DNA of 64,000 bases from Cryptosporangium aurantiacum (GTDB lineage: Bacteria > Actinomycetota > Actinomycetes > Mycobacteriales > Cryptosporangiaceae), in contig NZ_FRCS01000003.1 of assembly GCF_900143005.1 (NCBI RefSeq), positions 434,001 through 498,000 of the forward strand, written 5' to 3'. Below are positions 23,526 to 53,018 of the stretch, piece by piece. How positions within the stretch are numbered: the first letter of the stretch is position 1; each line of letters starts with the position of its first letter. The position numbers and the translations under genes are program-made. The notes beneath the pieces are model-generated. The model was not told where the DNA came from, did no database searches, and was given only the letters and a program-made list of their open reading frames with translations.

Positions 23526-24893
23526 ATGACGGGGTCTCCAGGCAAGGAGGGCGTCCGCCGCGACGGTTACGGCCCGACGAGCCCGATCGTCGGCGAACGC
23601 GGCGCCCGCACCCGCCGACGCATCGTGGCCGAAACCCTGACGCTGTTCGAGACGCAGGGTTTCCACGGGACGTCGGTGGAGGGCATCGCGAAGGCGGCCG
23701 GGACGTCGAGAGCGACGCTCTACCAGTACTTCGCCAGCAAAGAAGAGATCTTCGTCGAGCTACTCGACGAGTGCGGGTCCGCGCTGATGCGGGTCGTCCG
23801 CCGGATCGGCCCGCTGGGACCCACCCGCCTCGGTTTCGACAACCTGCACTGGTGGCTCGGCGAGTGGACGTACGTCCACGACAAGTACGCCACCATGTTC
23901 GCGCAGTGGGCCGGCATCGAATCGACCGGACAAACGATTCGGCCGCTGGTCCTTGGCTTCTCCCAGGCGTACGACGCGCGTATCGCCCGGCGGCTGGAGA
24001 CGTGCGAACTCCACGGGCTGGCACCCACGGACGCCGCGATCGCGCTGACCAGCATCATGCACCGGTTCAACTACTTCCGGCACCTCGGCCTGATTTCGAC
24101 GCCCGGACCGGACACCCTCCTCGACGGGCTGGCCGTGACCGTCCAACTCGTCCTCTTCCCCGAGACCCCACCGGACGTCTTCCCCGTCCGGCCGAGCGCG
24201 TTTCCCTTGGTGGAACCACACCCGGCGCCCCCGCCGGGCCGCACCACCCCGCACCCCGACACTCCGCGGATCGTCGACCGCACCAGCGACCTCCGTCCCC
24301 GCGCCGCCCGGACCGCGCGCCGACTGATCGACGCAGGCGCTGTCCTGTTCGCCGAACGGGGGTACCACGCGACCGCTGTCGACGACATCGCCGCCGCGAG
24401 TGGCCACGCCCGGGGGACCTTCTACAAGTACTTCGACGAGAAGCTCGACCTGCTGCTGCAACTGACCCTCGAGTGCGGCGCCGCGATGGGCCCGCTCGCG
24501 GCGTCGTTCGCCGCACTGGATCCAGCTGACCCCGACCGGCGGCCGTTGCGGGACTGGCTGACCGACTACCTCGCGTTCCGCGCGCGCTACGTCGGAGTGC
24601 TCCGCGCCTGGCTCGAAGGCACCTCGCGCGACCCGCGTCTGCTCGACGCCGTCGGCGAGGTGGCCGCCGAGCTGCGCGACGCGGCCCTGGCCGTGTTCGC
24701 CCGCGCCGATCGCCCGTATCCGATCGAACCCCCGATCGCCGCCGCCGTGCTGGGCGCGCTGCTGGAACGGATGCCCGAGGCGATCGCGGAACGGGCGGCC
24801 GACCGGCCGGACGCCCAGATCGTGGAGGTGATGGCCGCGGTGATCGAACGGGGTCTGCTCGGAGCATCAGCGTTGGGCATCGCTGCGCTCTAG
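23526..24893 (+). CDS. Double-TetR fusion regulator (paralog 1)
   Basis: 455 residues holding two complete TetR proteins in tandem. Domain 1: HTH at about 30-80 (GTSVEGIAKAAGTSRATLYQ, then YFASKEEIFVELL) followed by a helical ligand domain (LHWWLGEWTYVHDKYATMFA, RFNYFRH) to about 212. A Pro-rich linker spans about 213-250. Domain 2: HTH at about 262-312 (TAVDDIAAASGHARGTFYKY, then FDEKLDLLL) and a second ligand domain to the C-terminus. Ordinary TetR proteins are about 200 residues and dimerise; this chain can form both halves of a dimer with non-identical HTHs. GGAAGG precedes the ATG. It is the best candidate to read the asymmetric GTnnAC-N5-GTCAGA elements around it. Confidence 0.9.
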   Translation: MTGSPGKEGVRRDGYGPTSPIVGERGARTRRRIVAETLTLFETQGFHGTSVEGIAKAAGTSRATLYQYFASKEEIFVELLDECGSALMRVVRRIGPLGPTRLGFDNLHWWLGEWTYVHDKYATMFAQWAGIESTGQTIRPLVLGFSQAYDARIARRLETCELHGLAPTDAAIALTSIMHRFNYFRHLGLISTPGPDTLLDGLAVTVQLVLFPETPPDVFPVRPSAFPLVEPHPAPPPGRTTPHPDTPRIVDRTSDLRPRAARTARRLIDAGAVLFAERGYHATAVDDIAAASGHARGTFYKYFDEKLDLLLQLTLECGAAMGPLAASFAALDPADPDRRPLRDWLTDYLAFRARYVGVLRAWLEGTSRDPRLLDAVGEVAAELRDAALAVFARADRPYPIEPPIAAAVLGALLERMPEAIAERAADRPDAQIVEVMAAVIERGLLGASALGIAAL

Positions 24894-24901
24894 CTGAGCT
24901 T

Positions 24902-24919
24902 TCTGACAGCCTGTACACT
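24902..24919 (+). promoter_or_regulatory. Regulon element upstream of KshB-like reductase
   Basis: TCTGAC-AGCCT-GTACAC (24902-24918), one of the two best copies; the other is at 51617. TACACT at 24914-24919 could also serve as a -10 box, so a bound repressor would cover the promoter. Confidence 0.7.
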
Positions 24920-24991
24920 TGAGTCGATTCGATGCCCGCGCGACGTTCGCGGCGCGACCACTGGTTACCCCGAGCGGAGTGGACGCCAGAG

Positions 24992-26107
24992 ATGACCGAG
25001 TCGGCACGCAATGGGCGCACACGCAGGCTGCGCGTCGTCCGCACCATTCAGGAAACCGCGGACGCAGCCTCCGTCGTGTTCGCCGTCCCAGACGCCGACC
25101 GCGACAGGTTCACCTACCGGCCGGGCCAGTTTCTGACGCTTCGCATCCCCAGCGACCGGACCGGCTCGGTGGCTCGCTGCTACTCTTTGGCCAGCTCGCC
25201 GGACCACGATCCGAGCACCGAGCTGACCGTCACCGTCAAGCGCACCACCGATGGGTACGGCTCGAACTGGTTGTGCGACAACGCCACCCAGGACCTCGAG
25301 ATCGAGGTGCTACCCCCGAGCGGGGCGTTCACGCCGAAGAACCTCGACGCCGACTTCCTGCTCTTCGCCGGCGGCAGCGGCATCACGCCGATCCTCTCGA
25401 TCCTCAAGTCGGCGCTGGCTCGCGGCTCCGGGCAGATTCTGCTGGTCTACGCCAACCGGAGCGCCGACGCCGTCATCTTCCGGGAGCAACTGGCGGCACT
25501 GGCGACGCGTCACCCCGATCGGCTGGCCGTGGTCCACTGGCTGGAGTCGGTGCAGGGCCTCCCGGCCCGGGCGCAGCTGCGGACGCTGGTGGCGCCGTAC
25601 GCCGACCGCGAGAGCTTCGTCTGCGGGCCGCAGCCGTTCATGGCAGCGGTCACGGAGGCACTCCAGGACGCCGGCGTGCCGAAGGCACGCATTCGCACGG
25701 AGGCCTACAAGTCGCTCTCCGGCAACCCGTTCGAGCTCCCGGCCCCGACGACGGTTCCGACAACAGCCGCCCCCGTCTCGGCGGCCACCGCACCCGCGCC
25801 GGATTCCGCGGCGGGGCCGGTGGTGGGCGTCGCACTCGAGGTGGAGATCGGCGCGGCCACCCACGCCCTCACCTGGCCACCCGGTTCCCCGATGATCGAC
25901 ATCCTGCTCGGCCAGGGACTCGACGTGCCCTACTCCTGCCGCGACGGCGAGTGCGGTTCGTGCCAGGCGACGTTGCTCAAGGGCAAGGTCACGATGCTCC
26001 GCAACGAGGTACTCGGCGAGGACGACGTGGCCGAGGGCTACATCCTCACCTGCCAGGCCGTCCCGGCCGACGATCACGACGGCGGTCCGATCGCCGTCGA
26101 GTTCTAA
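24992..26107 (+). CDS. kshB: KshB-like ferredoxin reductase (FAD, NAD(P)H, C-terminal 2Fe-2S)
   Basis: 371 residues from ATG 24992; an in-frame ATG at 24932 would add 20 atypical residues. It has FAD-binding RCYSL (62-66) in SDRTGSVARCYSLASSP, TVKRTTDGYGSNWLC, the nucleotide site FAGGSGITPILSILKSALA, and VCGPQPFM. A Pro/Ala linker leads to a plant-type ferredoxin domain with Cys 316, 321, 324 and 354 (CRDGECGSC and LTCQA). The pattern is very close to the reductase of 3-ketosteroid 9alpha-hydroxylase. It would pass NADH electrons to the Rieske oxygenase encoded just downstream. A regulon element lies 74 bases upstream. Confidence 0.88.
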   Translation: MTESARNGRTRRLRVVRTIQETADAASVVFAVPDADRDRFTYRPGQFLTLRIPSDRTGSVARCYSLASSPDHDPSTELTVTVKRTTDGYGSNWLCDNATQDLEIEVLPPSGAFTPKNLDADFLLFAGGSGITPILSILKSALARGSGQILLVYANRSADAVIFREQLAALATRHPDRLAVVHWLESVQGLPARAQLRTLVAPYADRESFVCGPQPFMAAVTEALQDAGVPKARIRTEAYKSLSGNPFELPAPTTVPTTAAPVSAATAPAPDSAAGPVVGVALEVEIGAATHALTWPPGSPMIDILLGQGLDVPYSCRDGECGSCQATLLKGKVTMLRNEVLGEDDVAEGYILTCQAVPADDHDGGPIAVEF

Positions 26108-26122
26108 CCCCCGACCGTTGTT

Positions 26123-26146
26123 TCTGACACTGAGTTCACGTATAAC
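26123..26146 (+). promoter_or_regulatory. Regulon element and -10 box of the Rieske operon
   Basis: TCTGAC-ACTGA-GTTCAC (26123-26139) is followed at once by TATAAC (26141-26146), a good -10 box; TTGTTT at 26118-26123 is a possible -35 with a 17-base spacer. The element lies between the two boxes, a repressor position. The GTG start at 26153 is only 7 bases past the -10, implying a leaderless transcript. Confidence 0.65.
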
Positions 26147-26152
26147 GAGGAC

Positions 26153-26428
26153 GTGGTCACCGTCGACAGTCACCTCCTGACGCCCGGGGAGGCCGCGCGC
26201 GCGGGCGGACGTGCGCGCGAACTCGCCGAGCTCCGCAACGAGTTCGGCTGGGTCCGGATTTCGCTCGACGAACGCGGAAACAGCCCTCGCCTGCAGATCA
26301 CCGACGTCGAGACCGGCGCGACCATCCTGGTGTCCCCGTTGGAACTCGCCAGCCTCTGCCTCGCGACGGACGACGATCGGCTCGATTGGCTGCGGGTCGG
26401 CCACTACCGGGACGAGCGGCACCGATGA
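26153..26428 (+). CDS. Small conserved-looking protein of unknown function, first gene of Rieske operon
   Basis: 91 residues, mixed alpha/beta by eye: LTPGEAARAGGRARELAELR (helix), FGWVRISLDERGNSPRLQIT (strands), DVETGATILVSPLELASLCL, and WLRVGHYRDE. No cysteines for metal binding and no membrane segment. I do not recognise the family. The GTG start lacks a properly spaced ribosome site and lies about one promoter length from a TATAAC box, so it is probably translated from a leaderless mRNA. The stop overlaps the next start (ATGA). Its conserved position ahead of the thiolase-like/DUF35/Rieske genes suggests an accessory role in that system. Confidence 0.7.
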   Translation: MVTVDSHLLTPGEAARAGGRARELAELRNEFGWVRISLDERGNSPRLQITDVETGATILVSPLELASLCLATDDDRLDWLRVGHYRDERHR

Positions 26429-27588
26429 CAGCCCGACGCTCCGCGCACCCGGCGATCATCGGCCTCGGTCTGACAGAGATGTCATTACGGCCCGGCGCAT
26501 CGGCCGCAGAGCTGGCCGCCCAGGCTCTGCACTCCGCGATCACCGACGCCGACCTGGCACCCGCCCAGATCGACGGCCTGCTGGTCGGCTCGAGCCAGGG
26601 CGTCCGACCTGATCGTGTCGGCGTCACGCTCGCGGCGCAGGCCGGGCTGGGCGATCTGCGCCTGCTCGAACACGTCGAGATCAAAGGGGCCACGACCGTC
26701 GCCATGGTTCAGCGCGCGACCGACGCCGTCCGCGAAGGCCGCGCACGCTCGGTCGCGTGTGTGTTCGCCGATGCCCCGCTGCGGCCGACCGGAACTGCCG
26801 GCTCCACGTACGCGCACAGCGGTGGCACCAGCGGCGTCCGCGGTCTGGAGCGCGCCTCGGGCGTGCTCGGCTCGGTCCCGACCTACGCCCTGCTCGCCGC
26901 GCGCTGGCTATCGGTCACCGGCGGCTCCGCCGCCGACCTCTGTGCCGTCGCGGTCTCCGCACGCCAGTGGGCGGTGGGCAACCCGGCGGCTGTTCAGCGC
27001 CGGCCCCTGGGTGCCGACGCCTACTACGCCAGCCCGATGGTCTCCACACCACTCCGGCGGCTGGACTGCGCGCGCCCGGTGAACGGAGCGGCGGCGGTCG
27101 TGATCAGCGCCGAGCCCGCGGCCGCCGGCACCCCCGCGGTCCGCGTCCTGGGCACCGGCCGCGCCCACCCGATCCGCCGGCGCCGGGCCGGCGCCGAGTC
27201 CTGGTTCGGTGGTGGCCGAACCGCCGTCGACGACGCGCTGGCCGAGGCCGGACTGGAGCGCGGGGATCTCGACCTCCTGGAGCTCTACGACCCGTTCAGC
27301 GTCGTGACGCTCTGTCTGCTGGAGGAGTACGGGTTCTGCCCGCCGGGCCGCGCGGGCGCGATGGCGCGGGAGGGCGCACTCGCCCCCGGCGGTTCGCTCC
27401 CCACGAACACCGGCGGCGGTCAGCTCTCCGGCTTCTACCTGCAGGGCATGACGCCGCTGGTGGAGGCCGTCGTCCAACTCCGCGGCACCGGCGGCGCCCG
27501 CCAGGTGCCGGATGCCGGCACGGCGTTCGTCGGCGGGCTGGGCGGCCGCTCGGACCACCACGCCGCACTGATCCTGGAGGCGGCATGA
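26425..27588 (+). CDS. Thiolase-fold lipid-transfer-type enzyme (Ltp2-like aldolase candidate)
   Basis: 387 residues with the thiolase fold of the SCP-x/Ltp group. At the position of the nucleophilic Cys in true thiolases (N-R-x-C-x-S-G) this protein has EHVEIKGATTVAMVQ and no Cys. It keeps the LLELYDPFSVVTLCLLEEYG segment and the GGSLPTNTGGGQLSGFYLQG loop typical of Ltp2-like proteins. Ltp2 with a DUF35 partner is a retro-aldolase in steroid side-chain removal; the directly coupled DUF35 gene (ATGA overlap at 27585) supports the same kind of complex. Retro-aldol rather than thiolytic cleavage is inferred. Confidence 0.85.
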   Translation: MTARRSAHPAIIGLGLTEMSLRPGASAAELAAQALHSAITDADLAPAQIDGLLVGSSQGVRPDRVGVTLAAQAGLGDLRLLEHVEIKGATTVAMVQRATDAVREGRARSVACVFADAPLRPTGTAGSTYAHSGGTSGVRGLERASGVLGSVPTYALLAARWLSVTGGSAADLCAVAVSARQWAVGNPAAVQRRPLGADAYYASPMVSTPLRRLDCARPVNGAAAVVISAEPAAAGTPAVRVLGTGRAHPIRRRRAGAESWFGGGRTAVDDALAEAGLERGDLDLLELYDPFSVVTLCLLEEYGFCPPGRAGAMAREGALAPGGSLPTNTGGGQLSGFYLQGMTPLVEAVVQLRGTGGARQVPDAGTAFVGGLGGRSDHHAALILEAA

Positions 27589-28037
27589 CCGCCACCTACC
27601 TGGACGAGGACTGGCTGCTCGTTCCCAAGCTGGCGCCGTCCACCACCGACGATCCACTGACCCCGCTCTACGCGGGCGCCGCCGCCGGCGCGCTGGTCCT
27701 GCCGTTCTGCCTCGCCTGCGACCTGCCGCTGGAGCTGGAGCAACGGGTCTGCGACGGCTGCGCCACCGCCGGCCCGGTCTGGAGGCAGGTCGAGCCCCGC
27801 GGCAGCGTCCACTCGGTCACGGTGGTCCACCGTCTGGAGCCCGGCCTGATCCGGACGACCGAGCCCTACCCGGTAGCCGACGTCGAGCTGCACAGCGGAC
27901 ACCGCCTGGTACTCGGCCCGCTGCACCCCACGAAGACAGCCCCGGCCATCGGTGACCCCGTGACGATCGGCTTCCGCCGACTCGGCGCGGTGGCCCTTCC
28001 GGCGTTCGCCCCCTCGGAGACGGAGGACTCCCCATGA
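27585..28037 (+). CDS. DUF35 OB-fold/zinc-ribbon partner protein
   Basis: 150 residues. The N-terminal rubredoxin-like zinc ribbon has C-L-A-C (CLACDLPLELEQRVCDGC), followed by an OB-fold (GSVHSVTVVHRLEPG, then VADVELHSGHRLVLGPLH). DUF35 proteins bind acyl-CoA and pair with thiolase-fold enzymes or with MaoC domains (as in ChsH2). Overlapping starts and stops tie it to the Ltp2-like gene upstream and the Rieske alpha gene downstream. Confidence 0.87.
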   Translation: MTATYLDEDWLLVPKLAPSTTDDPLTPLYAGAAAGALVLPFCLACDLPLELEQRVCDGCATAGPVWRQVEPRGSVHSVTVVHRLEPGLIRTTEPYPVADVELHSGHRLVLGPLHPTKTAPAIGDPVTIGFRRLGAVALPAFAPSETEDSP

Positions 28038-29338
28038 CCGAACTCCAGACGCGCCCCGCGCCACGGACGGGAGTGCGGGATCTCGTGCGACCCGACCGCG
28101 TGCACGGATCCGTGTACACGGATCCGGAGGTCTTCGAACTCGAACTCCAGCGGATCTACGGACAGGGCTGGGTCTTCGTCGCCCACGACAGCGAGGTCCC
28201 GGAGCCCGGCGACTACGTCACCCGCCGGATCGGCCGCGATCCGGTGATCGTCACCCGCAGCAAGGACGGGGACGTGCACGTGCTGGCCAACCGGTGCACA
28301 CACCGCGGCAACCGGCTCTGCAACGCCGAGCGCGGCAACAGCACGACGTTCCGCTGCCCGTACCACGGCTGGACGTTCAAGAACGACGGCGCGCTGATCG
28401 GTATCCCGATGCGCAACGGCTACTCCGAGGAGTTCCTCGCCAAGCGGTCGGAGCTCGGCCTCGTGCCGCTCCCCCGCGTCGAGAGCTACCGGGGTTTCGT
28501 GTTCGCCTCGCTGGCCGGCGACGGCATCTCGCTGCGCGAGCACCTCGGCGCCGCCACCGGCGCCATCGACCGGCTGCTCGCGCTGTCCCCGAGCGGCACG
28601 CTCGACCTGCGGGCCGGCTGGATGAAGCATCGGCACTTCAGCAACTGGAAGATGGTCATCGAGAACAACGTCGACGGCTACCACGCGCTCTTCACCCACC
28701 AGTCGGTCTACGAGGCGGTCCGCGAGGCGAAGGTCTCGCACGTGCCGAGCAAGGTCGAGGTGTACGTCCGCGACCTGGGCGACGGCCACTCCGAGATCGA
28801 CTACCTGCCCGAGTACTCCCGGCTCGACGAGGAGTTCGTCTGGTTCGGACGCGCGCCCCGTGCGAAGCTCCCCGGCTACGTCGCCGCGATGGAGGAGGCC
28901 TACGGCAGCGAGGCCACCCACCGGGCGTTCGTCGTCGGACCGCCGCACACGATGATCTTCCCGAACCTCTTCCTCGCCGAGATGAACATCATGTACGTCG
29001 AGCCGATCGGTCCCGGCGAGACCATCGCGTACACCACCCCCGCGCTGATCCCCGGCATACCGGAGATGAACAGCCGGATGCTGCGCCGGACCGAGGGCGC
29101 GATGGGCCCGGCCGGCTTCCTCATCGCCGACGACGGGGAGATCGGCGCCCGCAACCAGCTCGGCCTGGCCTCCCGCAACCCGGAGTGGATCCAGCTCGCG
29201 CGCGGCTTCACCACCGACGAGCGGGACGAGACCGGAACCGTCAACCACGACAAGAGCTCGGAGACGCCGCAGCGCGGGCTCTGGCACCACTGGGCGTCCG
29301 TGCTGGACGCCCCCGACGCGCAGACGGCAGGTGCGTAA
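28034..29338 (+). CDS. Rieske non-heme iron oxygenase, alpha subunit
   Basis: 434 residues. The Rieske cluster ligands are C88, H90 (CTHRGNRLC) and C108, H111 (CPYHGW). The mononuclear iron site is ENNVDGYHALFTHQ with H217 and H222. It starts with the usual helix DPEVFELELQRIYGQGWVFV. With a separate beta subunit directly behind, it is an alpha3-beta3-type ring-hydroxylating oxygenase rather than a KshA-type alpha-only enzyme. It would insert oxygen into a ring or activated C-H of the pathway substrate using the KshB-like reductase. The substrate is unknown. Confidence 0.92.
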   Translation: MTELQTRPAPRTGVRDLVRPDRVHGSVYTDPEVFELELQRIYGQGWVFVAHDSEVPEPGDYVTRRIGRDPVIVTRSKDGDVHVLANRCTHRGNRLCNAERGNSTTFRCPYHGWTFKNDGALIGIPMRNGYSEEFLAKRSELGLVPLPRVESYRGFVFASLAGDGISLREHLGAATGAIDRLLALSPSGTLDLRAGWMKHRHFSNWKMVIENNVDGYHALFTHQSVYEAVREAKVSHVPSKVEVYVRDLGDGHSEIDYLPEYSRLDEEFVWFGRAPRAKLPGYVAAMEEAYGSEATHRAFVVGPPHTMIFPNLFLAEMNIMYVEPIGPGETIAYTTPALIPGIPEMNSRMLRRTEGAMGPAGFLIADDGEIGARNQLGLASRNPEWIQLARGFTTDERDETGTVNHDKSSETPQRGLWHHWASVLDAPDAQTAGA

Positions 29339-29847
29339 TGACCACACCGACCACGGCCGCCACCGGCGTCGACCCGGTCGTCCCCGTCGATCCGGTCGTT
29401 TTGGCGTTTCTCCACCGCGAGGCCCGCCTCGCCGACGAGGCCCGCTACTCCGAGTGGGAGCAGCTCTGGGACGACGAGGCCCGCTACTGGGTGCCGATGT
29501 CCGAGAACGCCGACCCCGAGCGAGACCTGTCCTACATCTACGACAACCGGCGACGGCTCCGCAGCCGCGTCGCCCAGCTCAACACCGGTTCCCGGCACTC
29601 CCAGACACCGCCGTCGAAGATGCGCCGGCTGCTCACGAACACCGAGCTGCTCGACCGGGACAGCGACACGGTCACCGTGGGCTCGAACTTCGTGCTCTAC
29701 GAGTACCGGTACGGGATGACGACCTGGGCGGGCCGCGTGATCCACCGGATCGTCCTGGACCCGGAGCGCGGACCGCGGCTGCGGGAGAAGACCGTGCACC
29801 TCGTCAACGCCGGCGATCCGCTTCCCACGCTGGCGTTCCTGCTATGA
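29338..29847 (+). CDS. Ring-hydroxylating oxygenase, beta subunit
   Basis: 169 residues of the SnoaL-like small-subunit family: FLHREARLADEARYSEWEQL, WDDEARYWVPM, then NRRRLRSRVAQLNTGSRHSQ and the C-terminal KTVHLVNAGDPLPTLAFLL. It is structural, forming the beta3 ring of alpha3-beta3 oxygenases. The ATG overlaps the alpha-subunit stop (TAATG). Confidence 0.92.
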   Translation: MTTPTTAATGVDPVVPVDPVVLAFLHREARLADEARYSEWEQLWDDEARYWVPMSENADPERDLSYIYDNRRRLRSRVAQLNTGSRHSQTPPSKMRRLLTNTELLDRDSDTVTVGSNFVLYEYRYGMTTWAGRVIHRIVLDPERGPRLREKTVHLVNAGDPLPTLAFLL

Positions 29848-31376
29848 GCCGGGCGCTGTGGCAGCTGGTCGAGGAGAGGGCGGACGCGACACCGGATGCC
29901 CGCGTCGCCGTCGACGAGCACCGCCGGACACTGACGTTCGAGCAGCTGCGCGACGAGGCCGAACGCACCGCCGCCGGGCTGCTCGCCCATGGCGTGCGCC
30001 CCAGTGACCTGGTCTCGTGGCAGCTGCCCACCGCGCTCGACACGATCGTCTTCACGCTCGCGCTCGCCCGGCTCGGCGCGGTACAGAATCCGCTGGTCAT
30101 GATGCTCCGCGAGCGCGATCTCGGGTTCATCTGCCGGCAGGCCCGGACGCGCTGGCTGGCGGTGCCGGGCGAGTTCCGCGGCACCGATCACGAGGCGATG
30201 GCGAAGGCGGTCGTCACCGGCGTACCCGGCGCGGAGGTCCTGCCGCTGGCCGACGGCCTGCCGACGGGTGATCCGGCGACGCTCCCGCCGCCCCCGTCGG
30301 ACGGATCCGACGTGCGGTGGATCTTCTACACCTCGGGGACGACGGCCGACCCCAAAGGCGCCAAGCACACCGACGCCGGACTGACCGCGGCCTCCCGGAC
30401 ATTCTGCGATCATCTCGCGCTGCGCCCGGAGGACGTGACCGCGACGCTCTTACCGCTGGCGCACGTCGGCGGCGTCGCACACCTCCTCAGCGCCCTCCAG
30501 GCCGGGAGCAGCCTGATCACCAGCGCGGTGTTCGACCCGGAGTCCACCCCGGACCTCCTCGCCGAGCAGGGCGTGACGCTCGTCGGCTCGGGCCTTCCGT
30601 TCATCCAGGTCTACCTCGCCCGGCAGCGCCTGCACCCGGATCGCCCGCTGTTCCCCCTCGCCCGGGTGACGCTCTGCGGCGGATCGCCGCGCCCGGCGTC
30701 GCTACACGAGACGGTCCGACGTGAACTCGGTGGCGTCGGTGTGGTCTCCGGCTACGGGATGACCGAGTGTCCGTACCTGACCTGGGGGCACTGGGACGAC
30801 TCCGATGCCGCTCACGCCACCTCCGAGGGCAACGCGGGCGCGGGAGGCGAGGTCGTCGTCGTCCGGCCCGACGGAACTCACGCGGGCCCCGGTGAGATCG
30901 GCGAGCTCCGCGTTCGGGGGCCCCAGCTGATGCGCGGGTACGTCGACTCCGCACTGGACGCCGACGCGTTCGACGAGAACGGCTACTTCCGCTCCGGCGA
31001 CCTCGGATTCCGCGACGAACGCGGCTACGTGACCGTGACCGGCCGACTCAAAGACATCATCATCCGCAAGATGGAGAACATCTCCGCGCGGGAGCTCGAA
31101 GAGCTCCTGATCGGCCACCCGCGGGTGGCCGACGTGGCGGTGATCGGCCTGCCTGATCCGGAGACCGGCGAACGGGTCTGCGCGGTCGTGGTGCCGGTCT
31201 CCGCTGAGGATCCGCCGGATCTCACCGGCCTCTGCGATCACCTGCTCGACCACGGCCTGAGCACCCGCAAGCTGCCCGAGCAGCTCGAGCTCGTCGGTGC
31301 GCTGCCCCGCAACGCCATGGGCAAGGTCGTCAAGCGCGACCTGACCGCACGCTACCGGATCCAGGAGACCCGATGA
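29844..31376 (+). CDS. Acyl-CoA synthetase (AMP-forming)
   Basis: 510 residues of the ANL superfamily: P-loop YTSGTTADPKGAKHT, VVSGYGMTECPYLTW, the hinge FRSGDLGFRDERGYVTVTGR and the catalytic lysine near PRNAMGKVVKRDLT. It activates a carboxylic acid to its CoA ester via the adenylate. It is coupled (ATGA) to the Rieske beta gene and to the hydratase gene downstream, so it probably activates the acid produced by the oxygenase branch. Specificity cannot be read by eye. Confidence 0.92.
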   Translation: MSRALWQLVEERADATPDARVAVDEHRRTLTFEQLRDEAERTAAGLLAHGVRPSDLVSWQLPTALDTIVFTLALARLGAVQNPLVMMLRERDLGFICRQARTRWLAVPGEFRGTDHEAMAKAVVTGVPGAEVLPLADGLPTGDPATLPPPPSDGSDVRWIFYTSGTTADPKGAKHTDAGLTAASRTFCDHLALRPEDVTATLLPLAHVGGVAHLLSALQAGSSLITSAVFDPESTPDLLAEQGVTLVGSGLPFIQVYLARQRLHPDRPLFPLARVTLCGGSPRPASLHETVRRELGGVGVVSGYGMTECPYLTWGHWDDSDAAHATSEGNAGAGGEVVVVRPDGTHAGPGEIGELRVRGPQLMRGYVDSALDADAFDENGYFRSGDLGFRDERGYVTVTGRLKDIIIRKMENISARELEELLIGHPRVADVAVIGLPDPETGERVCAVVVPVSAEDPPDLTGLCDHLLDHGLSTRKLPEQLELVGALPRNAMGKVVKRDLTARYRIQETR

Positions 31377-33342: not shown

Positions 33343-33352
33343 ACGGAGAAGC

Positions 33353-34507: not shown

Positions 34508-34534
34508 CCACCCGCACGAGAGAGGCCGGATCGC

Positions 34535-36001: not shown

Positions 36002-36022
36002 CGTCTCGGCACCGGCGACGTC

Positions 36023-39365: not shown

Positions 39366-39423
39366 GAGACCTCGAAGGCGTCGGGGAGCGTTCTCCAGTG
39401 AACAGATGCGCGTTCTTCCTATC

Positions 39424-39496
39424 GTAGACGCACCGTCAGAACTAGTCTGACAGTTAGAGGGTATCGGCAGTCGAAACGGAGGAACCCGGTGTCAGA
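39424..39496. promoter_or_regulatory. Cluster of regulon elements in divergent promoter region
   Basis: GTAGAC-GCACC-GTCAGA (39424-39440) overlaps an exact palindrome GTCAGA-ACTAG-TCTGAC (39435-39451). This is the only place where two GTCAGA halves face each other with the same 5-base spacer. A further core, AGGAAC-CCGGT-GTCAGA (39480-39496), overlaps the GTG start of the acyl-CoA dehydrogenase. The densest operator region in the window. Confidence 0.7.
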
Positions 39497-40664: not shown

Positions 40665-40675
40665 TGGTGGTCACG

Positions 40676-41550: not shown

Positions 41551-41553
41551 CGC

Positions 41554-42390: not shown

Positions 42391-42397
42391 GCGCTAA

Positions 42398-42414
42398 GCG
42401 TACATGGAGTCAGA
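42398..42414. promoter_or_regulatory. Regulon element between thioesterase and CoA-transferase genes
   Basis: GCGTAC-ATGGA-GTCAGA, 8 bases upstream of the thioesterase start. The remaining 180 bases to the CoA-transferase start hold CGACT-GTTAG-AGTCG, a small hairpin near 42495, and otherwise no recognised feature. Confidence 0.65.
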
Positions 42415-42591
42415 TTCGGGTGGCTCATGAACCGAACATGCGAGCGGAATTCCCGGCTAGAGCCCTAGTTGGCCGATGACATCAAGGTGACACGACTGTT
42501 AGAGTCGCCACAGTTCAGGCCGGTTCGGAGTGGTGAGGCCCGCTGTCTCCCCCCGTTCCCATCGACTCTCATCAACGACGAGGAGCTGGCC

Positions 42592-43806: not shown

Positions 43807-43816
43807 GGTCGTGGGC

Positions 43817-44008
43817 TCAGGTGACCTGGAGCGCCCGCTCAGGGCAGGCGGCCGCGCCGAGTCGCGCCGCCGGCTCCTGGGCGGCCGGCACCGGAGTATC
43901 GCTGGGAATGCCGACGAAACCGTCCGAGTCGAGCGGGTAGATCTCCGGAGCCTGCGCGTTGCACTGCGCATGCCCCTGGCAGAGGTCGGTCCTCACCAGA
44001 ATCCTCAT
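43817..44008 (-). CDS. Small ferredoxin partner of the adjacent P450
   Basis: 63 residues: MRILVRTDLCQGHAQCNAQA with C-x-G-H-x-x-C, and ACPERALQVT with the distal Cys-Pro. His at the second cluster position indicates a 3Fe-4S cluster, usual for P450 redox partners. It overlaps the P450 stop by 4 bases (ATGA) and is certainly co-expressed with it. Confidence 0.92.
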   Translation of the reverse strand: MRILVRTDLCQGHAQCNAQAPEIYPLDSDGFVGIPSDTPVPAAQEPAARLGAAACPERALQVT

Positions 44009-45264: not shown

Positions 45265-45286
45265 CGTCGACTCCCCACCTTGCTGG

Positions 45287-45368
45287 GTGATGGCGATGTC
45301 AGACGCTACCGGACCTGGAACAAAAAAGGCCAGTACAACTCCCTTAATTGCGAAGACTTGGTGTCAGA
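45287..45368. promoter_or_regulatory. Two regulon elements upstream of the P450-ferredoxin operon
   Basis: GTGATG-GCGAT-GTCAGA (45287-45303, weak left half) and GAAGAC-TTGGT-GTCAGA (45352-45368). Between them an AT-rich stretch (CAAAAAAGG, CTTAATTG) probably holds the P450 promoter. Confidence 0.65.
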
Positions 45369-45378
45369 AGAAGTGGCC

Positions 45379-46563: not shown

Positions 46564-46988
46564 CGGGGCGCGCCCCCTTCGGTCGGACGGAACACCGGAA
46601 TCCACACGTCCTCGTGCTGCTCGAAAACGACCTCCACCGCCATGCCGATCGACACGGCCTCCGGCTCGCAGTCGACGATCTGGGTGGTGAGCCGGACGTC
46701 CGGCTCCTCCACCAGCTCCACCAGGCCGATCACGTACGGGGTGGGGTACATCGGGCCGAACCAGGGATGGTGGTTCACGGTGAAGGATGCGACGACCGCG
46801 CGTCCGGACACCGCTTCCGGTGCGACGTCCCGGCTGCGGCAGCGGAAGCAGGCGCCGACCGGCGGGTGGAAGAGCCGGCGACAGTTCCGGCAGCGATGGA
46901 TCCGGAGCTCACCGTCGGCGCCGCCGGACCAGAACGCCGCCGAGTCCGCCGTCACCTCCGGCAGCAGACGGGAAGTGGGTCGCGTCAT
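46560..46988 (-). CDS. DUF35 OB-fold/zinc-ribbon partner protein
   Basis: 142 residues: helix ADSAAFWSGGADGELRIHRC, zinc ribbon C-R-N-C and C-F-R-C, then the OB domain (GRAVVASFTVNHHPWFGPMY, YVIGLVELVEEPDVRLTTQI). All four zinc cysteines are present. Acyl-CoA-binding partner of the thiolase-fold protein encoded immediately downstream. First gene of its operon; the divergent FadA5-like thiolase gene is 169 bases away with two regulon elements between. Confidence 0.9.
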   Translation of the reverse strand: MTRPTSRLLPEVTADSAAFWSGGADGELRIHRCRNCRRLFHPPVGACFRCRSRDVAPEAVSGRAVVASFTVNHHPWFGPMYPTPYVIGLVELVEEPDVRLTTQIVDCEPEAVSIGMAVEVVFEQHEDVWIPVFRPTEGGAPR

Positions 46989-47007
46989 TGCTCATCCTCT
47001 TCGCTAG

Positions 47008-47091
47008 TACAACATCCCGTCAGAAACTAAGGTCCCCGAGGACGGCATGGCAAGGCTGACTCCTGGTCGAAAGCGTAGACGAGTAGTCAGA
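47008..47091. promoter_or_regulatory. Two regulon elements between DUF35/Ltp and thiolase operons
   Basis: TACAAC-ATCCC-GTCAGA (47008-47024), nearer the DUF35 gene, and GTAGAC-GAGTA-GTCAGA (47075-47091), nearer the thiolase gene; one per divergent promoter. Confidence 0.7.
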
Positions 47092-47157
47092 ATCTACCTA
47101 GACTCCGGGCCGAGAGGGTGGCCGGGCCACCCTGGCGTCCCCCGCGAGGAGCTCACC

Positions 47158-48345
47158 ATGCCCGACGCAGTACTCGTCTCGGCCTGCCGCACGGCCATCG
47201 GTACGTTCCGCAAAGGCACGCTGGCCGACACCAGCGCCTTCGACCTCGCCTCCGCGATCGTCGAGGCCGCGGTGAAGCGCAGCGGGCTGGCCGCCGGAGA
47301 CGTGGACGACCTGATCCTCGGTGAGGTGATGTACGGCGGCGGCGACGTGGCCCGCCACGCGGCGGTCACCACCGGGATGACCGAGGTCCCCGGCTTCGCG
47401 CTCAACCGGCACTGCGCATCCGGTCTGACCGCGGTCGCGACCGCCGCCGCCAGCATCCGTGCCGGCATGGACGACGTCGTCGTGGCCGGCGGTGTCGAGT
47501 CCCGCTCCACCGCACCGCGGCTGTCGTTCCGGGTGCCGGGGACCACCGACGTGGTCGAGGACTGGATGTCCCCCAGCCACCCCGACCGGCCCGATGCCCC
47601 GAACAAGGACATGTCGATCACCGTCGGCTGGACCGCCGCGCAAGCGGCCGGCGTCACCCGCGAGGAGATGGACGCCTGGGCGCTGCGCTCGCACCAGCGC
47701 GCGATCCGGGCCGTCGACGAGGGACGCTTCGCCGACGAGATCGTCCCGCTCCAGGTCCGCCGGCTCGACGGCACCACGACGGTCTTCGAGGTCGACGAGC
47801 ACCCCCGGCGTACGACAACGGCCGAGAAGCTGGCCGCGCTCGCGCCGCTGCACCCGGAGATCCCGGGGTTCAGCATCACAGCCGGCAACAGCTCCGGTAT
47901 CAACGACGCCGCGGCCGCGGTCACGGTTGTCTCCGACCGGGTTGCCACCGAGCGAGGGCTGACCCCGCTGGCGATCGTCCGTTCCTGGGCCTCGGTCGGC
48001 GTGGACCCGGCAGAGACCGGGTTGGCCCCGGTGAAGGCCATCCCCAAGGCGCTGCGCCGGGCCGGGCTGACCCTCGGCGACGTCGACCTCTTCGAAATCA
48101 ACGAGGCATTCGCCTCGATGTGCGTGGCTACCACCCGGATGCTCGACATCGACGAGGAGATCGTGAACGTCAGCGGCAGCGGATGCAGCCTCGGCCACCC
48201 AGTGGCGGCCACCGGCGCCCGGATGGTCACCACGCTCGTCCACGAGCTGGGGCGGCGTGGTGGCGGCATCGCGGTCGCCGCGATGTGCGCCGGGGGCGGC
48301 ATGGGATCGGCGATGGTGCTCGAGGTGCCGGGAGCAGCGCGATGA
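47158..48345 (+). CDS. Acetyl-CoA acyltransferase (thiolase, FadA5-like)
   Basis: 395 residues with a complete thiolase active site: nucleophile C86 in NRHCASGLTAV, FEINEAFASM (His/Asn region), GCSLGHPVAATGARMV (catalytic His) and the second Cys in AMCAGGGMGSAM. ATG at 47158 follows GAGGAG; upstream in-frame residues are non-homologous. It performs the thiolytic step of beta-oxidation, releasing acetyl- or propionyl-CoA. The pattern resembles steroid side-chain thiolase FadA5, but most fatty-acid thiolases look similar. Leads an operon with a ligase and a racemase. Confidence 0.93.
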   Translation: MPDAVLVSACRTAIGTFRKGTLADTSAFDLASAIVEAAVKRSGLAAGDVDDLILGEVMYGGGDVARHAAVTTGMTEVPGFALNRHCASGLTAVATAAASIRAGMDDVVVAGGVESRSTAPRLSFRVPGTTDVVEDWMSPSHPDRPDAPNKDMSITVGWTAAQAAGVTREEMDAWALRSHQRAIRAVDEGRFADEIVPLQVRRLDGTTTVFEVDEHPRRTTTAEKLAALAPLHPEIPGFSITAGNSSGINDAAAAVTVVSDRVATERGLTPLAIVRSWASVGVDPAETGLAPVKAIPKALRRAGLTLGDVDLFEINEAFASMCVATTRMLDIDEEIVNVSGSGCSLGHPVAATGARMVTTLVHELGRRGGGIAVAAMCAGGGMGSAMVLEVPGAAR

Positions 48346-49877
48346 ACCTCGGCATGCTGCTGGAGATGGCCGCCGATGGCGTGGCCGACCGGGTCGCGCT
48401 CGGACGGTCGGCCGATGCCGTGACGTTCGCCGAGTTCGGTCTCCGTGCCCGGCGGGTGGGCGCGCTGCTCGCCGCCGCCGGGGGCGAACGGGTCGGCCTG
48501 GTCGACCTGAACTCCCCCGCCGTCCCGATCGCACTCTTCGGCGCCGCGCTGGCCGGGAAGCCGTTCGTGCCGTTGAACTACCGCCTGGCCGACGACCAGC
48601 TGCTCGCGATCGCGCGGCGGATCGCCCCGGCCACGGTCGTGGTGGGACCCGGTGTCGCCGAACGCCTGCGCGGCGTCGACGGCCTGACGTTGATCGAGCG
48701 GGACGAGGTGCTCCGGTTCGCAGCGGACCCGACAGCCGCCCTAGCCGACGGGCCCGGCGGAGAGCCGGACGACATCGCCGTCCTGCTGTTCACCAGCGGC
48801 ACCACCGGCGAGCCCAAAGCGGCCGTGCTCCGGCACCGCAATCTCGCCTCGTACATCCTGTCCACGGTGGAGTTCGCCGGTGCGGAGGAGTCCGAGGCCG
48901 CCCTGATCAGCGTTCCGCCGTACCACATCGCGGCCGTCTCCGCGGCGCTGTCGAACACCTACGCCGGGCGCCGTGTGCTGCACCTGGAGTCCTTCGACCC
49001 CGCCCGCTGGGTCGCGCTCGCGCGGGCCGAGTCGGTGACTCACGCGATGGTCGTGCCGACGATGCTCAACCGCATCCTCGACGCGCTGGAGAACGGAGCG
49101 GTCGACGGGCTTCCCGCGCTGCGCTCGCTCTCCTACGGCGGCGGGCCGATGCCTTCCACGGTGATCGAGCGGGCGATGCGGCTGCTCCCGTCGGTCGGAT
49201 TCGTCAACGCGTACGGCCTGACCGAGACGTCCAGCACGGTCGCCGTGCTCGGCCCCGACGACCACCGCGAAGCGTTCGCGAGCAGCGATCCCGCGGTGCG
49301 GGCCCGCCTCGGTTCGGTCGGTAGGCCGCTGCCCGGCCTGGACGTCAGCGTCCGTGACCCGTTGGGTGAGCCGCTGCCGGCCGGGGAGCGTGGCGAGATC
49401 TGGGTCCGTGGCGAACAGGTCTCCGGCGAGTACCTCGCCGGCACCGCGACCGACGCCGACGGATGGTTCCCCACGCGGGACGCCGGGATGCTCGACGACG
49501 ACGGATTCCTCTACGTGTACGGCCGCCTGGACGACGTGATCGTGCGCGGCGGCGAGAACCTCTCCCCCGGCGAGATCGAGGCGGCGCTGCTCTCCCACCC
49601 CGACGTGGCCGAAGCCGCGGTGTTCGGGGTCCCCGACACCGACTGGGGTGAGAAGGTCGTGGCCGCCGTCGTGCTGGCGGAGGGAGCGTCGGTCACCGAC
49701 CGCGCCGACGTCGAGCGGGACTTGCGCGAGCACGTCCGCGCCAGGTTGCGGTCCACCTGCACGCCGGAACACGTCCAGGTCCGTCCGCAGTTGCCCTACA
49801 CCGAGACCGGCAAGCTGCTGCGGCGGGTACTCCGGGCCGAGGTCGCCGCCACGCTGTCCCCGACGGTGGGGGTCTGA
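48342..49877 (+). CDS. Acyl-CoA synthetase (AMP-forming)
   Basis: 511 residues: P-loop FTSGTTGEPKAAVLRHRN, NAYGLTETSSTVAVLGPDDH, RDAGMLDDDGFLYVYGRLDD and the terminal catalytic Lys in PYTETGKLLRRVLR. ATGA overlap with the thiolase. The third acyl-CoA ligase of the regulon. Each heads or sits in a different operon, suggesting successive acid intermediates. Confidence 0.92.
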   Translation: MNLGMLLEMAADGVADRVALGRSADAVTFAEFGLRARRVGALLAAAGGERVGLVDLNSPAVPIALFGAALAGKPFVPLNYRLADDQLLAIARRIAPATVVVGPGVAERLRGVDGLTLIERDEVLRFAADPTAALADGPGGEPDDIAVLLFTSGTTGEPKAAVLRHRNLASYILSTVEFAGAEESEAALISVPPYHIAAVSAALSNTYAGRRVLHLESFDPARWVALARAESVTHAMVVPTMLNRILDALENGAVDGLPALRSLSYGGGPMPSTVIERAMRLLPSVGFVNAYGLTETSSTVAVLGPDDHREAFASSDPAVRARLGSVGRPLPGLDVSVRDPLGEPLPAGERGEIWVRGEQVSGEYLAGTATDADGWFPTRDAGMLDDDGFLYVYGRLDDVIVRGGENLSPGEIEAALLSHPDVAEAAVFGVPDTDWGEKVVAAVVLAEGASVTDRADVERDLREHVRARLRSTCTPEHVQVRPQLPYTETGKLLRRVLRAEVAATLSPTVGV

Positions 49878-49880
49878 CGG

Positions 49881-50984
49881 GTGGGTCCCCTCACCGGAAT
49901 CCGCGTCGTGGAGCTGGCCGGGATGGGGCCGGGGCCGCACGCCGCCCTGCTGCTGGGCGATCTGGGTGCGGACGTCCTCCGCGTCGAGCGCCCCGGCACG
50001 GGCGAGCGTCGTTCCGGACCGCCGCCCCGCAGTCGCGCCGTGTGTGAACTCGACCTCGGGCACGCCGCCGGCCGCGGGACGGTCCTCGATCTGGTGGCCC
50101 ACGCCGACGTCCTGGTGGAGGGATTCCGGCCCGGCGTCACCGAACGGCTGGGCGTCGGACCGGCGCACTGTCTGGCCCGCAACCCGGGATTGATCTACGC
50201 CCGGATGACCGGGTGGGGTCAGTACGGGCCGCTGGCCCACCGGGCCGGGCACGACATCAACTACGTCGGCCTCACCGGCGTGCTCGACGCGATCGGCCGG
50301 GACGGTGCCCCGCCGACGGTCCCGCTCAACCTCGTCGGCGACTTCGGCGGCGGCTCCACCTACCTGGTGATCGGCATCCTCGCTGCGCTGGTCGAGCGGG
50401 CACGTTCGGGTCGGGGACAGGTGATCGACGCCGCCATCGTCGACGGGGTGTCGAGCCTCGCGCAGGCGATCTGGTCCCTGCGAGGCACGGGTTGCTGGCA
50501 GGACGGCCGGGGCACCAACCGGCTCGACGGCGGCGCGCCGTTCTACGACGTCTACCCGACCGCGGACGGTGGTCACATGGCCGTCGGCGCCCTCGAGCCG
50601 CAGTTCTATGCCGCGCTGCTCGCCGGACTGGGGCTGGACCCGGCCGAGCTGCCCGCTCAGGACGACCGGTCGGGGTGGCCGGCGCTACGGGCGGCGTTCG
50701 CGGACGCGTTCCGTAGCCGCACCCGGGACGAGTGGACTGCGGTGTTCGCGAACGTGGACGCGTGTGTCACCCCGGTGCTGACGTTCGCCGAGGCGGCCGC
50801 CGATCCGCACCTGACCGCACGCCGGACGCTGGTCGACCGGGACGGTGTCGTGCAGCCGGCCCCGGCGCCGCGGTTCTCCCGGACGCCACCGGCGCCACCC
50901 CATCCACATCCAGGTCCGGCCGACCCGGCCGCCGTACTGGCGGCCTGGGCCGGCTCAGCGCCTCAGTCGGCTAGCCCTCGATAG
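49881..50984 (+). CDS. mcr: Alpha-methylacyl-CoA racemase (CaiB family)
   Basis: 367 residues from GTG 49881. The racemase signature is clear: [35 protein letters not shown], and [20 protein letters not shown], giving H124 and D154 at the positions of the catalytic His126/Asp156 pair of mycobacterial MCR. It inverts the 2-methyl centre of (R)-2-methylacyl-CoAs so that S-specific acyl-CoA dehydrogenases can act. Its presence implies a methyl-branched (isoprenoid or sterol-type) side chain. Its last 22 bases overlap the convergent flavin reductase gene. Confidence 0.9.
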
Positions 50985-51547
50985 CGGCGGGCGCTGGCCA
51001 GCTGCGGGACGTGGTTGGTCTCGTACTGCTCGATCCACTCCGGCGGCAGGCTCTTCCACGCCTCGCCGACCCGCAGCCGTCCTCCGCTGCCGAGCCGCTC
51101 GGCACCCACCACGTCGCCGACGAACAGCGTGCTCTCGTCCATGTCCAGCGTGTGCACCACGCGGGCCTCCACGTAGGACAGCGCGTCGAGCAGGATCGGC
51201 GCGCCGGTCACTCCCTGCTTGGTGCGGAATCGGCCGATCTTGTCGCCGTCCCGACCGGAGCTGCCGCCCAGGCCCATCAGGATCGCGAGCGAGTCCTGGA
51301 GCGCGGGCTCCGGGTCGGCCGCGAGCAGGTGCGTCACGAACACCCCGGACCGCAGCACCATGTCGTGGGTCTTGTTGTACTTCGTCAGGCTGATCGTCAC
51401 CCGCGGCGCTTCCGGGACGATGCTGGCTGCGCCCGCCGAGAGGGAGATCAGACCGTTCACCTCGCCCTCGTCGATGGTCGTCACCGCGACCGGGAAGGGC
51501 CGGAGCCCTGACAGCGTGTACTCCGCAGCCTTCAGATCAACCGTCAT
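50963..51547 (-). CDS. Flavin reductase domain protein
   Basis: 194 residues from ATG 51547 (GGAG upstream; a GTG two codons earlier is possible). Split-barrel flavin-binding pattern: [51 protein letters not shown] and [20 protein letters not shown]. Members reduce FMN or FAD with NAD(P)H for a partner monooxygenase, or bind F420. No two-component flavin oxygenase gene is adjacent, so the partner may be one of the LLM proteins (36898, 61796). Confidence 0.85.
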
Positions 51548-51616
51548 GTCCACTCCAGATCAGAGCGGCCCCGGTGAGCACACCAACCCCACCACAGCCT
51601 CGACGTCGAGAACCTT

Positions 51617-51633
51617 TCTGACTCCTTGTACAC
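51617..51633. promoter_or_regulatory. Regulon element upstream of flavin reductase gene
   Basis: TCTGAC-TCCTT-GTACAC; on the minus strand GTGTAC-AAGGA-GTCAGA. With the 24902 copy it defines the best consensus. It lies 70 bases upstream of the flavin reductase start. Confidence 0.7.
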
Positions 51634-51674
51634 GATATCGAGAAAGCGGGTCAATGAGGTGAGGAAGGATGCGA

Positions 51675-53018
51675 TCAGCGGGGGGCGACAGCGCCGTTGA
51701 GCAGGCCGCGCCGCAGCACCGCCAGCATCAATGCGACGACGTCGGCATCCGAGGCCGGCTCGCCCCGCTCGTCCACCGCTTCCGGCAACCGGTCGAGCGC
51801 CGCCAGGAACACGGCGGCGGCGACGTCGAGGTCGAGCGGGTAGGGACGCTCGACCTGCCGGAGCAGCCGGAGGCAAGCATCCCGCATCGCCGCGTTGGAC
51901 CGGACGGCGGCGTCCAGCAGGTCCGGATCGGTCAGGTTCCCCTCGGCCCAGACCCGGAAGACCCCGAGGTAGCGGCGGTGGAACGGCACGAACTCCTCGA
52001 GCCAAGCCCGCAGCGCGTCGTCGGACCCGTCTTCCAGGTTCAGCGAGGCAAGTCGCTCGATGAGCACCGTGGCGGCAGCCCCGGCGTCCGCCGAGAGGCG
52101 GCGCAGCAGATCCAGCTTGTCGTCGAAGTACTTGTAGAACGTCGCGCGCGCGAATCCGGCCGCGGCAACGAGGTCGTCGACGCCGGTGGCGTGGTATCCG
52201 CGCTCGGCGAGCAGCCGGGTACCGGCGGCGAGGATCTGATCCACGGTGGCCGCGGCCCGGCGACTGAGCTCCGCCACCGGCGGGGCCGCGCGCGGTGGGG
52301 CCGGAGCCGGCACCACGGAGATCGTGGCGCGTCGGCGCCGGGCTCCGCCGTCGAGCTGCGGCAGAGTGCCGAACGCGTCCGGCGGGGTGTCCGGGAACAA
52401 CATCAGCTGCATCAGCACCGCGAGCCCGTCGATCGCCTCCTCGACGTCCGGCATCGGGTCGTGCTGGCGGTGCCGGAAGAAGTTGAAGCGGTGGACCAGG
52501 CTGGTCAGCGCGAGCGCGGCGTCGTCCGGCGACATACCCTCCACGCCACTGGAGGTCAGCCGCTCGGCGATCCGGGCGTTGTAGTTGCTGACGAAGCCCA
52601 TGACCAGCGGGCGCGTGCTCGTGCCGGGGGCGTCGACGTTCGTCCACTGCACGAACATCGTGGCGTATTTGTCGTAGACCCACGCCCACTCGCCGAGCCA
52701 CCAGTGCAGGTTGTCGAAGCCCTCGGCAGTGGGGCCGAGCGGCCCGAGCCGCCGCACCACCCGGGACAACGCCGCACCGCACTCCTCGAGCAGCTCGACG
52801 AAGATCTGCTCCTTGCTCTCGAAGTACTGGTAGACGGTCGCGCGGGAGGTGGCGGCACCCTTGGCGATACTGTCCACCGAGGTGCCGTGGAAGCCCTCGG
52901 CCTCGAACTGCCGCAGCGCCGCCTCGACAATGCGCCCGCGGGTCTGGGCACCCCGCTGGCCGACCACCGGGCTCGAAGGCCAGTAGCCGTCTCGGCGCAA
53001 AATCTCTCCGTCTGACAT
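51675..53018 (-). CDS. Double-TetR fusion regulator (paralog 2)
   Basis: 447 residues with the same two-TetR layout as the protein at 23526. HTH 1 at about 26-76 (GTSVDSIAKGAATSRATVYQ, then YFESKEQIF), ligand domain with LHWWLGEWAWVYDKYATMFV, RFNFFRH and LMLFPDTPPDAF to about 215, linker rich in Ala/Pro/Arg, HTH 2 at about 255-305 (TGVDDLVAAAGFARATFYKY, then FDDKLDLL). Recognition helices match paralog 1 nearly exactly within each position but differ between positions 1 and 2. The ATG overlaps a GTCAGA core, and a TATCCT box lies 8 bases before it, so the mRNA is probably leaderless and autoregulated. Confidence 0.9.
   Translation of the reverse strand: MSDGEILRRDGYWPSSPVVGQRGAQTRGRIVEAALRQFEAEGFHGTSVDSIAKGAATSRATVYQYFESKEQIFVELLEECGAALSRVVRRLGPLGPTAEGFDNLHWWLGEWAWVYDKYATMFVQWTNVDAPGTSTRPLVMGFVSNYNARIAERLTSSGVEGMSPDDAALALTSLVHRFNFFRHRQHDPMPDVEEAIDGLAVLMQLMLFPDTPPDAFGTLPQLDGGARRRRATISVVPAPAPPRAAPPVAELSRRAAATVDQILAAGTRLLAERGYHATGVDDLVAAAGFARATFYKYFDDKLDLLRRLSADAGAAATVLIERLASLNLEDGSDDALRAWLEEFVPFHRRYLGVFRVWAEGNLTDPDLLDAAVRSNAAMRDACLRLLRQVERPYPLDLDVAAAVFLAALDRLPEAVDERGEPASDADVVALMLAVLRRGLLNGAVAPR

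Follow-up and report, generated by a model that had tools for sequence, protein, structure and literature searches.

Known double TetR regulators and the system studied

The first solved structure of a regulator with two TetR units in one chain is that of Mce3R (Rv1963c) of Mycobacterium tuberculosis (PDB 9b7y; PMC11667970); the matches listed in our search of the open-access PMC literature include no other natural double TetR of known structure. According to PMC11667970, cryo-electron microscopy and electrophoretic mobility shift assays show that Mce3R folds as one asymmetric TetR (M1-M2) on a non-palindromic operator. Its ligand-binding domain is single and formed jointly by both halves, with a cavity that in the authors' opinion could take two ligands. 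The R53A substitution abolishes high-affinity binding, and M1 alone does not bind the operator. Mce3R chains homodimerize and the dimer binds two DNA duplexes; the two 25-bp sites lie 53 bp apart, or ~78 bp start to start. The same paper cites 204 predicted double TetRs in actinomycetes. Here we compare Mce3R with two double TetR proteins, P0001 and P0002, and their predicted operator in a 64,000-nucleotide stretch of Cryptosporangium aurantiacum DNA, referred to as the window (positions 434001-498000 of contig C3, NZ_FRCS01000003.1, in a genome of 9.58 Mb and 44 contigs).

Each half of P0001 and P0002 is a TetR unit, as in the ordinary homodimeric TetR/AcrR regulators EthR, FasR and DesT. In contrast to the single chains considered here, ordinary TetR/AcrR regulators consist of two chains and usually bind palindromes, and the Mce3R motifs are not classical palindromes (both statements from PMC4482099). 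Engineered single-chain TetR transactivators, described in PMC1797012, also join two TetR units but are man-made.

Double TetR proteins and their predicted fold

The open reading frames at 23526-24893 (+) and 51675-53018 (-) encode P0001 and P0002, proteins of 455 and 447 residues with 53% identity over 441 aligned positions. The sequence-only reading of this DNA had proposed two TetR units per protein, and the TetR_N family (PF00440) indeed matches twice in each, with whole-protein scores of 104 and 110 bits (E 3.5e-30 and 4e-32) against a curated cut-off of 24, which assigns both to the TetR family. In P0001, helix-turn-helix (HTH) domain 1 (23622-23762, +) contains the recognition helix SRATLYQYF with Gln67, and HTH domain 2 (24324-24461, +) contains ARGTFYKYF with Lys301. 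The corresponding domains of P0002 contain SRATVYQYF with Gln64 (52791-52931, -) and ARATFYKYF with Lys296 (52098-52235, -); the helix letters quoted in that reading (TSRATLYQYF and ARGTFYKYF, TSRATVYQYF and ARATFYKYF) are exact. Among the matches listed for the regulators, no NCBIfam model scored above its cut-off and no pathway name was found.

The sequence-only reading had also suggested looking for other double TetR proteins. Besides the foreign relatives described below, the search found a third close paralogue on the same contig (C3:325124-326440), which is full-length, 51% identical and has two TetR_N stretches. A fourth, distant double TetR, L022, is encoded on this contig at C3:321681-322961; it is full-length with two TetR_N stretches at 28% identity, and TCTGAC-N5-GT is not among the sites listed for its 4.3-kb locus. 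Two further frames of the genome, C1:1259540-1260352 and C9:150627-151370 (461 and 410 aa), have two TetR_N matches each and are probably double TetRs of other subfamilies.

The AlphaFold2 models of P0001 (6 input sequences; pLDDT 83.3, pTM 0.82) and P0002 (34 input sequences; pLDDT 87.3, pTM 0.86) both follow Mce3R along the whole chain. Alignment to the Mce3R-DNA structure gave a Z-score of 24.9 over 354 positions (root-mean-square deviation, rmsd, 4.2) for P0001 and 24.4 over 360 positions (rmsd 4.7) for P0002, and the best single-TetR match, EthR, scored 16.7 and 14.7, respectively. In Foldseek the match to Mce3R had an E-value of 5.7e-8 and the next match 8e-4. In prediction, then, both halves of each protein pack as one asymmetric omega-shaped TetR. 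Monomer structure prediction had been proposed as a check of the idea of a covalent pseudo-heterodimer on an asymmetric operator. This central idea is not new, having been demonstrated already for the distant relative Mce3R (PMC11667970); for P0001 and P0002 it is supported by inference from the Mce3R-like predicted fold and the asymmetric form of the motif described below. The single-chain part is supported by the fold match and has to be corrected in one respect: Mce3R chains also homodimerize and use two sites, and the same-strand site pairs found here fit such an arrangement.

Predicted operator motif in the genome and in a catabolic island

The pattern CTTTCTGAC-NN-C-N-TGTACAC, which was drawn up after both sites had been seen, has exactly two matches in the window, at 24899-24918 and 51614-51633 (+), and shuffled windows contain on average 0.03 matches with up to 3 mismatches. 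The sites reported earlier at 24902 and 51617 are therefore real; their half sites had been placed 11 bp apart, close to the 12 bp measured between the element starts. Of the 14 copies of the shorter pattern TTTCTGAC-N5-GT in the 9.58-Mb genome, 12 fall within C3:319-520 kb; the backward pattern has no copy anywhere in this genome.

We compared a 288-kb catabolic island (C3:290001-578000) with a 790-kb background made up of sequence from C1, C2 and C3 outside the island, using a weight matrix with the consensus nTTCTGAC[AG]-N4-GT[AC][TC]Ac, i.e. nTTCTGAC-N5-GTmTAc. At a threshold of at least 16 bits the island has 46 sites and the background 4, an in-sample count; at 18 bits the numbers are 37 and 1. 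A search for co-occurring motifs, another of the checks proposed earlier, thus extends far beyond the two initial sites, to 15 sites in the window alone that reach 16 bits. Called genes cover ~73% of the island, and 35 of its 46 sites lie outside them. Eight sites are oriented along the only nearby gene start or starts and 10 run counter to them; another 16 are flanked by divergent genes, and the other 12 have no called start nearby. The sites point both ways, a distribution that a blocking repressor would be expected to show. The start codons of P0002 and of the third paralogue are each spanned by a site. The island thus contains about 46 predicted operators together with the three close double TetR paralogues.

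Motif and protein family in other genomes

Relatives at 1e-60 were found in 3 of 298 genomes of the same order, our genome included, and the three genus-mates in this sample have no close relatives of the double TetRs. A scan of the GTDB species collection with the peptides RAT[VLF]YQYF (HTH 1) and L[HN][WR]WL[GI]EW gave 125 stretches encoding a relative, of which the best 80 were kept, representing 77 distinct loci in Pseudonocardia, Frankia, Mycobacterium, Rhodococcus, Nocardia, Nocardioides, Streptomyces and others. At a threshold of 15 bits, the matrix trained on the island has 174 matches, spread over 69 of the 77 foreign loci, compared to 11 matches in 9 loci for the reversed sequences. 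Among 35 non-redundant foreign loci (under 75% identity), 25 have no other TetR-like frame of at least 120 residues, and sites are present in 22 of these. A 38%-identical relative from another family of the order (L093) has two sites upstream, 20 bp apart. We predict a widespread subfamily of single-chain TetR regulators with its own operator.

In three Frankia loci (L103, L106, L107), TCTGAC-N6-GTCC lies just before the regulator frame and overlaps its apparent start codon, an arrangement similar to that at P0002 and at the third paralogue. The motif was rejected as a cross-genome marker of the regulator: TTTCTGAC-N5-GT is found in 167 of the 298 genomes of the order, with at most 8 copies per genome outside our own (14), and single sites therefore mean little alone.

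The relationship with Mce3R has two sides. Both systems have two TetR units per chain with the same whole-chain fold, a non-palindromic operator and autoregulation (fold, operator and autoregulation being predicted here), and both have two sites and genes of lipid-type catabolism; in contrast, the matching recognition residues are Gln and Lys here and Arg and Arg in Mce3R. Loci of Mce3R relatives were taken from 201 genomes of the family to which the genome of locus L123 (Mycobacterium europaeum) belongs, where five matches at 1e-30 were found (L181-L184 with 76-85% and L185 with 42% identity to the query segment); an earlier search of 12 genomes, run without a positive control, gave none at 1e-20. 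Within about 1.5 kb on each side of the five loci, TTCTGAC is absent from both strands and the island matrix has no match of 12 bits on either strand, which suggests that the predicted operator is that of a separate subfamily. Profile A1 matches Mce3R (E 1.1e-19) in two stretches, both of which use the second half of the profile, against either Mce3R half, and none of which spans the chain. On the profile match and on the scan of the five loci (about 1.5 kb on each side), orthology with Mce3R was rejected or left open.

Half sites, spacers and recognition residues

The spacer-5 site has a weak dyad in its inner part (AC-N5-GT) and unlike outer arms. We counted pairs of the left (TTCTGAC) and right (GTmTAc) half sites. 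At spacer 5 and threshold 16 the island has 31 left-right, 3 left-left and no right-right pairs (background 3, 0 and 0), and at threshold 15 the 35 foreign loci have 45, 1 and 1 (reversed 2, 1 and 3). Left-right pairs are also found in the foreign loci at spacers 6 and 7 (41 and 18). Perfect TTCTGAC/GTCAGAA palindromes with spacers 0-13 are absent from the 77 loci and the island, which contain 248 copies of TTCTGAC; the hexamer version TCTGAC/GTCAGA occurs eight times in this set at the same spacers.

The residue following the conserved Tyr of the YxYF motif is Gln in HTH 1 of all 77 loci, and in HTH 2 it is Lys in 72, Arg in 4 and Leu in 1. Conservation in HTH 1 is partly built in because the relatives were found with an HTH 1 peptide, RAT[VLF]YQYF; the 14 members without RAT still keep YQYF. 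The HTH 2 Lys aligns with R53 and R257 of Mce3R, and the HTH 1 Gln has the equal place in its YxYF motif. By inference, Gln of HTH 1 probably reads TTCTGAC and Lys of HTH 2 the right half.

One clade (L156, L160, L163; support 100/100), in which Arg replaces the HTH 2 Lys, forms a natural experiment on operator symmetry, with a palindromic predicted operator. Palindromes are present in 3 of 4 Arg loci and 4 of 72 Lys loci (Fisher 0.0019 with loci taken as independent; the link represents one clade and one event). Near-identical palindromes TACTGAC-N5-GTCAGTA, which are two of the island left-left sites by pattern, occur in the window at 12046-12070 and 12086-12104, between the single TetR gene 12108-12848 (-) and the frame 10905-12017 (-). 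These are likely the operator of an ordinary TetR, and their half site resembles the one predicted for the double TetRs; the single TetR beside them provides a natural contrast with the double TetRs.

Spacing of neighbouring sites

Neighbouring TCTGAC-N5-7-GT sites up to 250 bp apart in the island and the 35 foreign loci are mostly on the same strand (42 pairs, with 6 on opposite strands; p 1e-7), both in the island (19 and 4) and in the foreign loci (23 and 2). Same-strand spacings not exceeding 130 bp number 32 and fall into groups at 44, 53-59, 65-68, 77-81, 93-103 and 109-116 bp. Their periodicity near 11 bp was reached in 0 of 5000 jittered sets (p 0.0004 in the foreign loci; best period 11.3), in a test made after the spacings had been inspected, and the 10.5-bp period gave p 0.0026 overall and 0.107 in the island. 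These spacings suggest helical phasing of the neighbouring sites. Looping by the lac repressor in cells has a period of ~11 bp. Loops of 65-86 bp do form, according to PMC5081198. Bridging is a fair hypothesis because the two Mce3R sites lie ~78 bp apart start to start and its dimer binds two duplexes (PMC11667970).

Proposed mechanism and alternatives

The data are best explained if P0001 and P0002 are single-chain repressors whose HTH 1 and HTH 2 read unlike half sites in the operators of catabolic genes, which we consider probable. The TetR halves of one chain would pack as two separate chains do in an ordinary TetR, and the resulting omega-shaped repressor would present two unlike recognition helices. 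HTH 1, through its Gln, would read the constant half site TTCTGAC and HTH 2, through its Lys, the variable one, GTmTAc. Each chain would repress catabolic (acyl-CoA or oxygenase) genes, and P0002 its own gene too, by occupying promoter regions until an inducer, probably an acyl-CoA of the pathway, binds the composite pocket. Two chains on neighbouring sites probably interact, as Mce3R chains do when they dimerize.

Several observations weigh against this explanation or narrow it. The 46-versus-4 count is in-sample because the matrix was grown on the island, on left-right sites; 11 of the 46 island sites lie within called genes (the gene calls are rough), and in 8 of the 77 foreign loci no site reaches 15 bits. 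The proteins share only 16-18% identity with Mce3R, and the fit has an rmsd of 4.2-4.7 (10.0 in Foldseek). At spacers 6 and 7 the 35 foreign loci also have 24 and 12 left-left pairs (reversed 2 and 1), and the logos for these spacers carry GTCA on the right, giving a TGAC...GTCA core (n=23 and 11). The asymmetry claim is therefore limited, and part of the operator set is near-symmetric at the core. In the clade with the HTH 2 Arg, the matched part of the regulator is preceded, at a distance of about 90 to 220 bp, by a TCTGAC-N6-GTCAGA palindrome. The operator asymmetry of the sequence-only reading accordingly holds for the spacer-5 form, while the spacer-6 and -7 sites and the palindrome clade are more symmetric than it supposed. 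Left-right pairs exceed the control at spacers 4 (19 vs 3) and 8 (7 vs 2) in the foreign loci and at spacer 3 in the island (10 vs 0), an effect of the loose definition of the right half and of left halves that enter more than one pair. Finally, the test for helical phasing falls short of significance when the island is taken by itself (p 0.077).

The near-symmetric cores, the left-left enrichment at spacers 6 and 7, the TCTGAC-N6-GTCAGA palindromes that precede the regulator in three loci and the homodimerization of Mce3R (PMC11667970) would all fit a domain-swapped dimer of chains, in which HTH 1 pairs with HTH 1 and HTH 2 with HTH 2, each pair on its own palindrome. We regard this as improbable: spacer-5 sites are left-right (45 vs 1 and 1), no perfect heptamer palindrome occurs at spacers 0-13, the one-chain models are confident overall (pTM 0.82 and 0.86) and follow the whole Mce3R chain, and M1 of Mce3R alone did not bind its operator (PMC11667970). 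About equally improbable is a two-signal sensor with a separate ligand pocket in each TetR half and two inducers integrated. The models do show two helical C-terminal domains per chain, and the Mce3R cavity could take two ligands, per its authors; Mce3R nevertheless has one composite ligand-binding domain (both PMC11667970), and the two pockets per chain suggested earlier find no support in this closest structure.

The association of motif and family rests on neighbourhood, and the window encodes other TetRs at 12108-12848, 16617-17237 and 17403-17954, so the motif might be the target of another regulator of these clusters, with the double TetRs recognizing a different sequence. The sites in 22 of the 25 loci with no other TetR-like frame, in a screen that covered TetR-like frames only, and the sites overlapping the start codons of P0002 and the third paralogue make this still less probable. 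Chance repeats or a promoter element are the least plausible of the alternatives considered. The 69 versus 9 loci exclude chance; promoters can be asymmetric too, but where gene starts lie on a single strand the island sites take either direction (8 same, 10 opposite), and a 5-bp spacer does not match the -35/-10 promoter layout.

A broader model goes beyond single-chain repression by P0001 and P0002. A widespread actinobacterial single-chain TetR family would use a modular operator, in which a constant TTCTGAC, read by the invariant Gln helix, is combined at spacer 5-7 with a changeable half read by the second helix. Chains on same-direction, in-phase sites about 44 to 116 bp apart would bridge into very short DNA loops, and in one clade the change of Lys to Arg would have gone with a move to a palindromic operator. 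We offer this combination tentatively and think it rather doubtful as a whole; its constant-plus-variable half-site code and the phased neighbouring sites are testable and unproven.

Predicted operators in the window

Genes with Pfam matches near the window sites encode an enoyl-CoA hydratase, a ferredoxin-reductase type oxidoreductase, thiolases, an acyl-CoA ligase, an acyl-CoA dehydrogenase, a thioesterase, a CoA-transferase, a P450, a ChsH2-like protein, a flavin reductase, an aldehyde dehydrogenase, a phosphotransferase and a luciferase-like oxidoreductase. Near P0001, predicted operators lie before the enoyl-CoA hydratase gene 22248 (22205-22230, -, 22.9 bits), between P0001 and the oxidoreductase gene at 24932 (the 24902 site; 24898-24923, +, 26.5 bits), and before 26153, which has no Pfam match, and the thiolase-like 26386 (26119-26144, +, 29.4 bits). 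A match within the oxidoreductase gene (25128-25153, +, 17.0 bits) has a right half without GT and is perhaps due to chance. Further predicted operators are located between the acyl-CoA ligase gene 37827 and the acyl-CoA dehydrogenase gene 39489 (39419-39444, -, 25.9 bits), between the thioesterase gene 41554 and the CoA-transferase gene 42469 (42393-42418, -, 23.6 bits), and before the cytochrome P450 gene 44005 (45347-45372, -, 25.6 bits). Two form a same-strand pair 67 bp apart: one between the ChsH2-like gene 46560 and the thiolase gene 47047 (47003-47028, -, 20.4 bits), the other overlapping the called start of 47047 (47070-47095, -, 26.3 bits).

Around P0002, one predicted operator lies between its gene and the flavin reductase gene 50963 (the 51617 site; 51613-51638, +, 30.5 bits), and a predicted autoregulatory one lies across its start codon (53007-53032, +, 19.8 bits), the third paralogue being arranged alike. 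A second pair, 103 bp apart, consists of a predicted operator between 53465 and the aldehyde dehydrogenase gene 54129 (53930-53955, -, 20.6 bits) and another at 54033-54058 (-, 22.8 bits). The remaining sites are a match overlapping the end of 59314-60240 (60231-60256, -, 16.3 bits) and a predicted operator between 60628 and the luciferase-like oxidoreductase gene 61796 (61772-61797, -, 29.2 bits).

Implications for double TetR regulation

The new part here is the operator, the fold principle being known from Mce3R; among the matches listed in the open-access PMC literature, no title or abstract start named an nTTCTGAC-N5-GTmTAc operator. For synthetic biology, a repressor in one chain whose two specificities could be altered independently would be a useful part. 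The Mce3R structure was solved with one promoter, and a second, distant subfamily now brings dozens of aligned predicted sites in one genome. Together with the sites near 69 of 77 relatives, this provides sufficient material to establish by what rules two different half sites are read by a single-chain TetR, how far the spacer may vary and whether chains bridge neighbouring sites.

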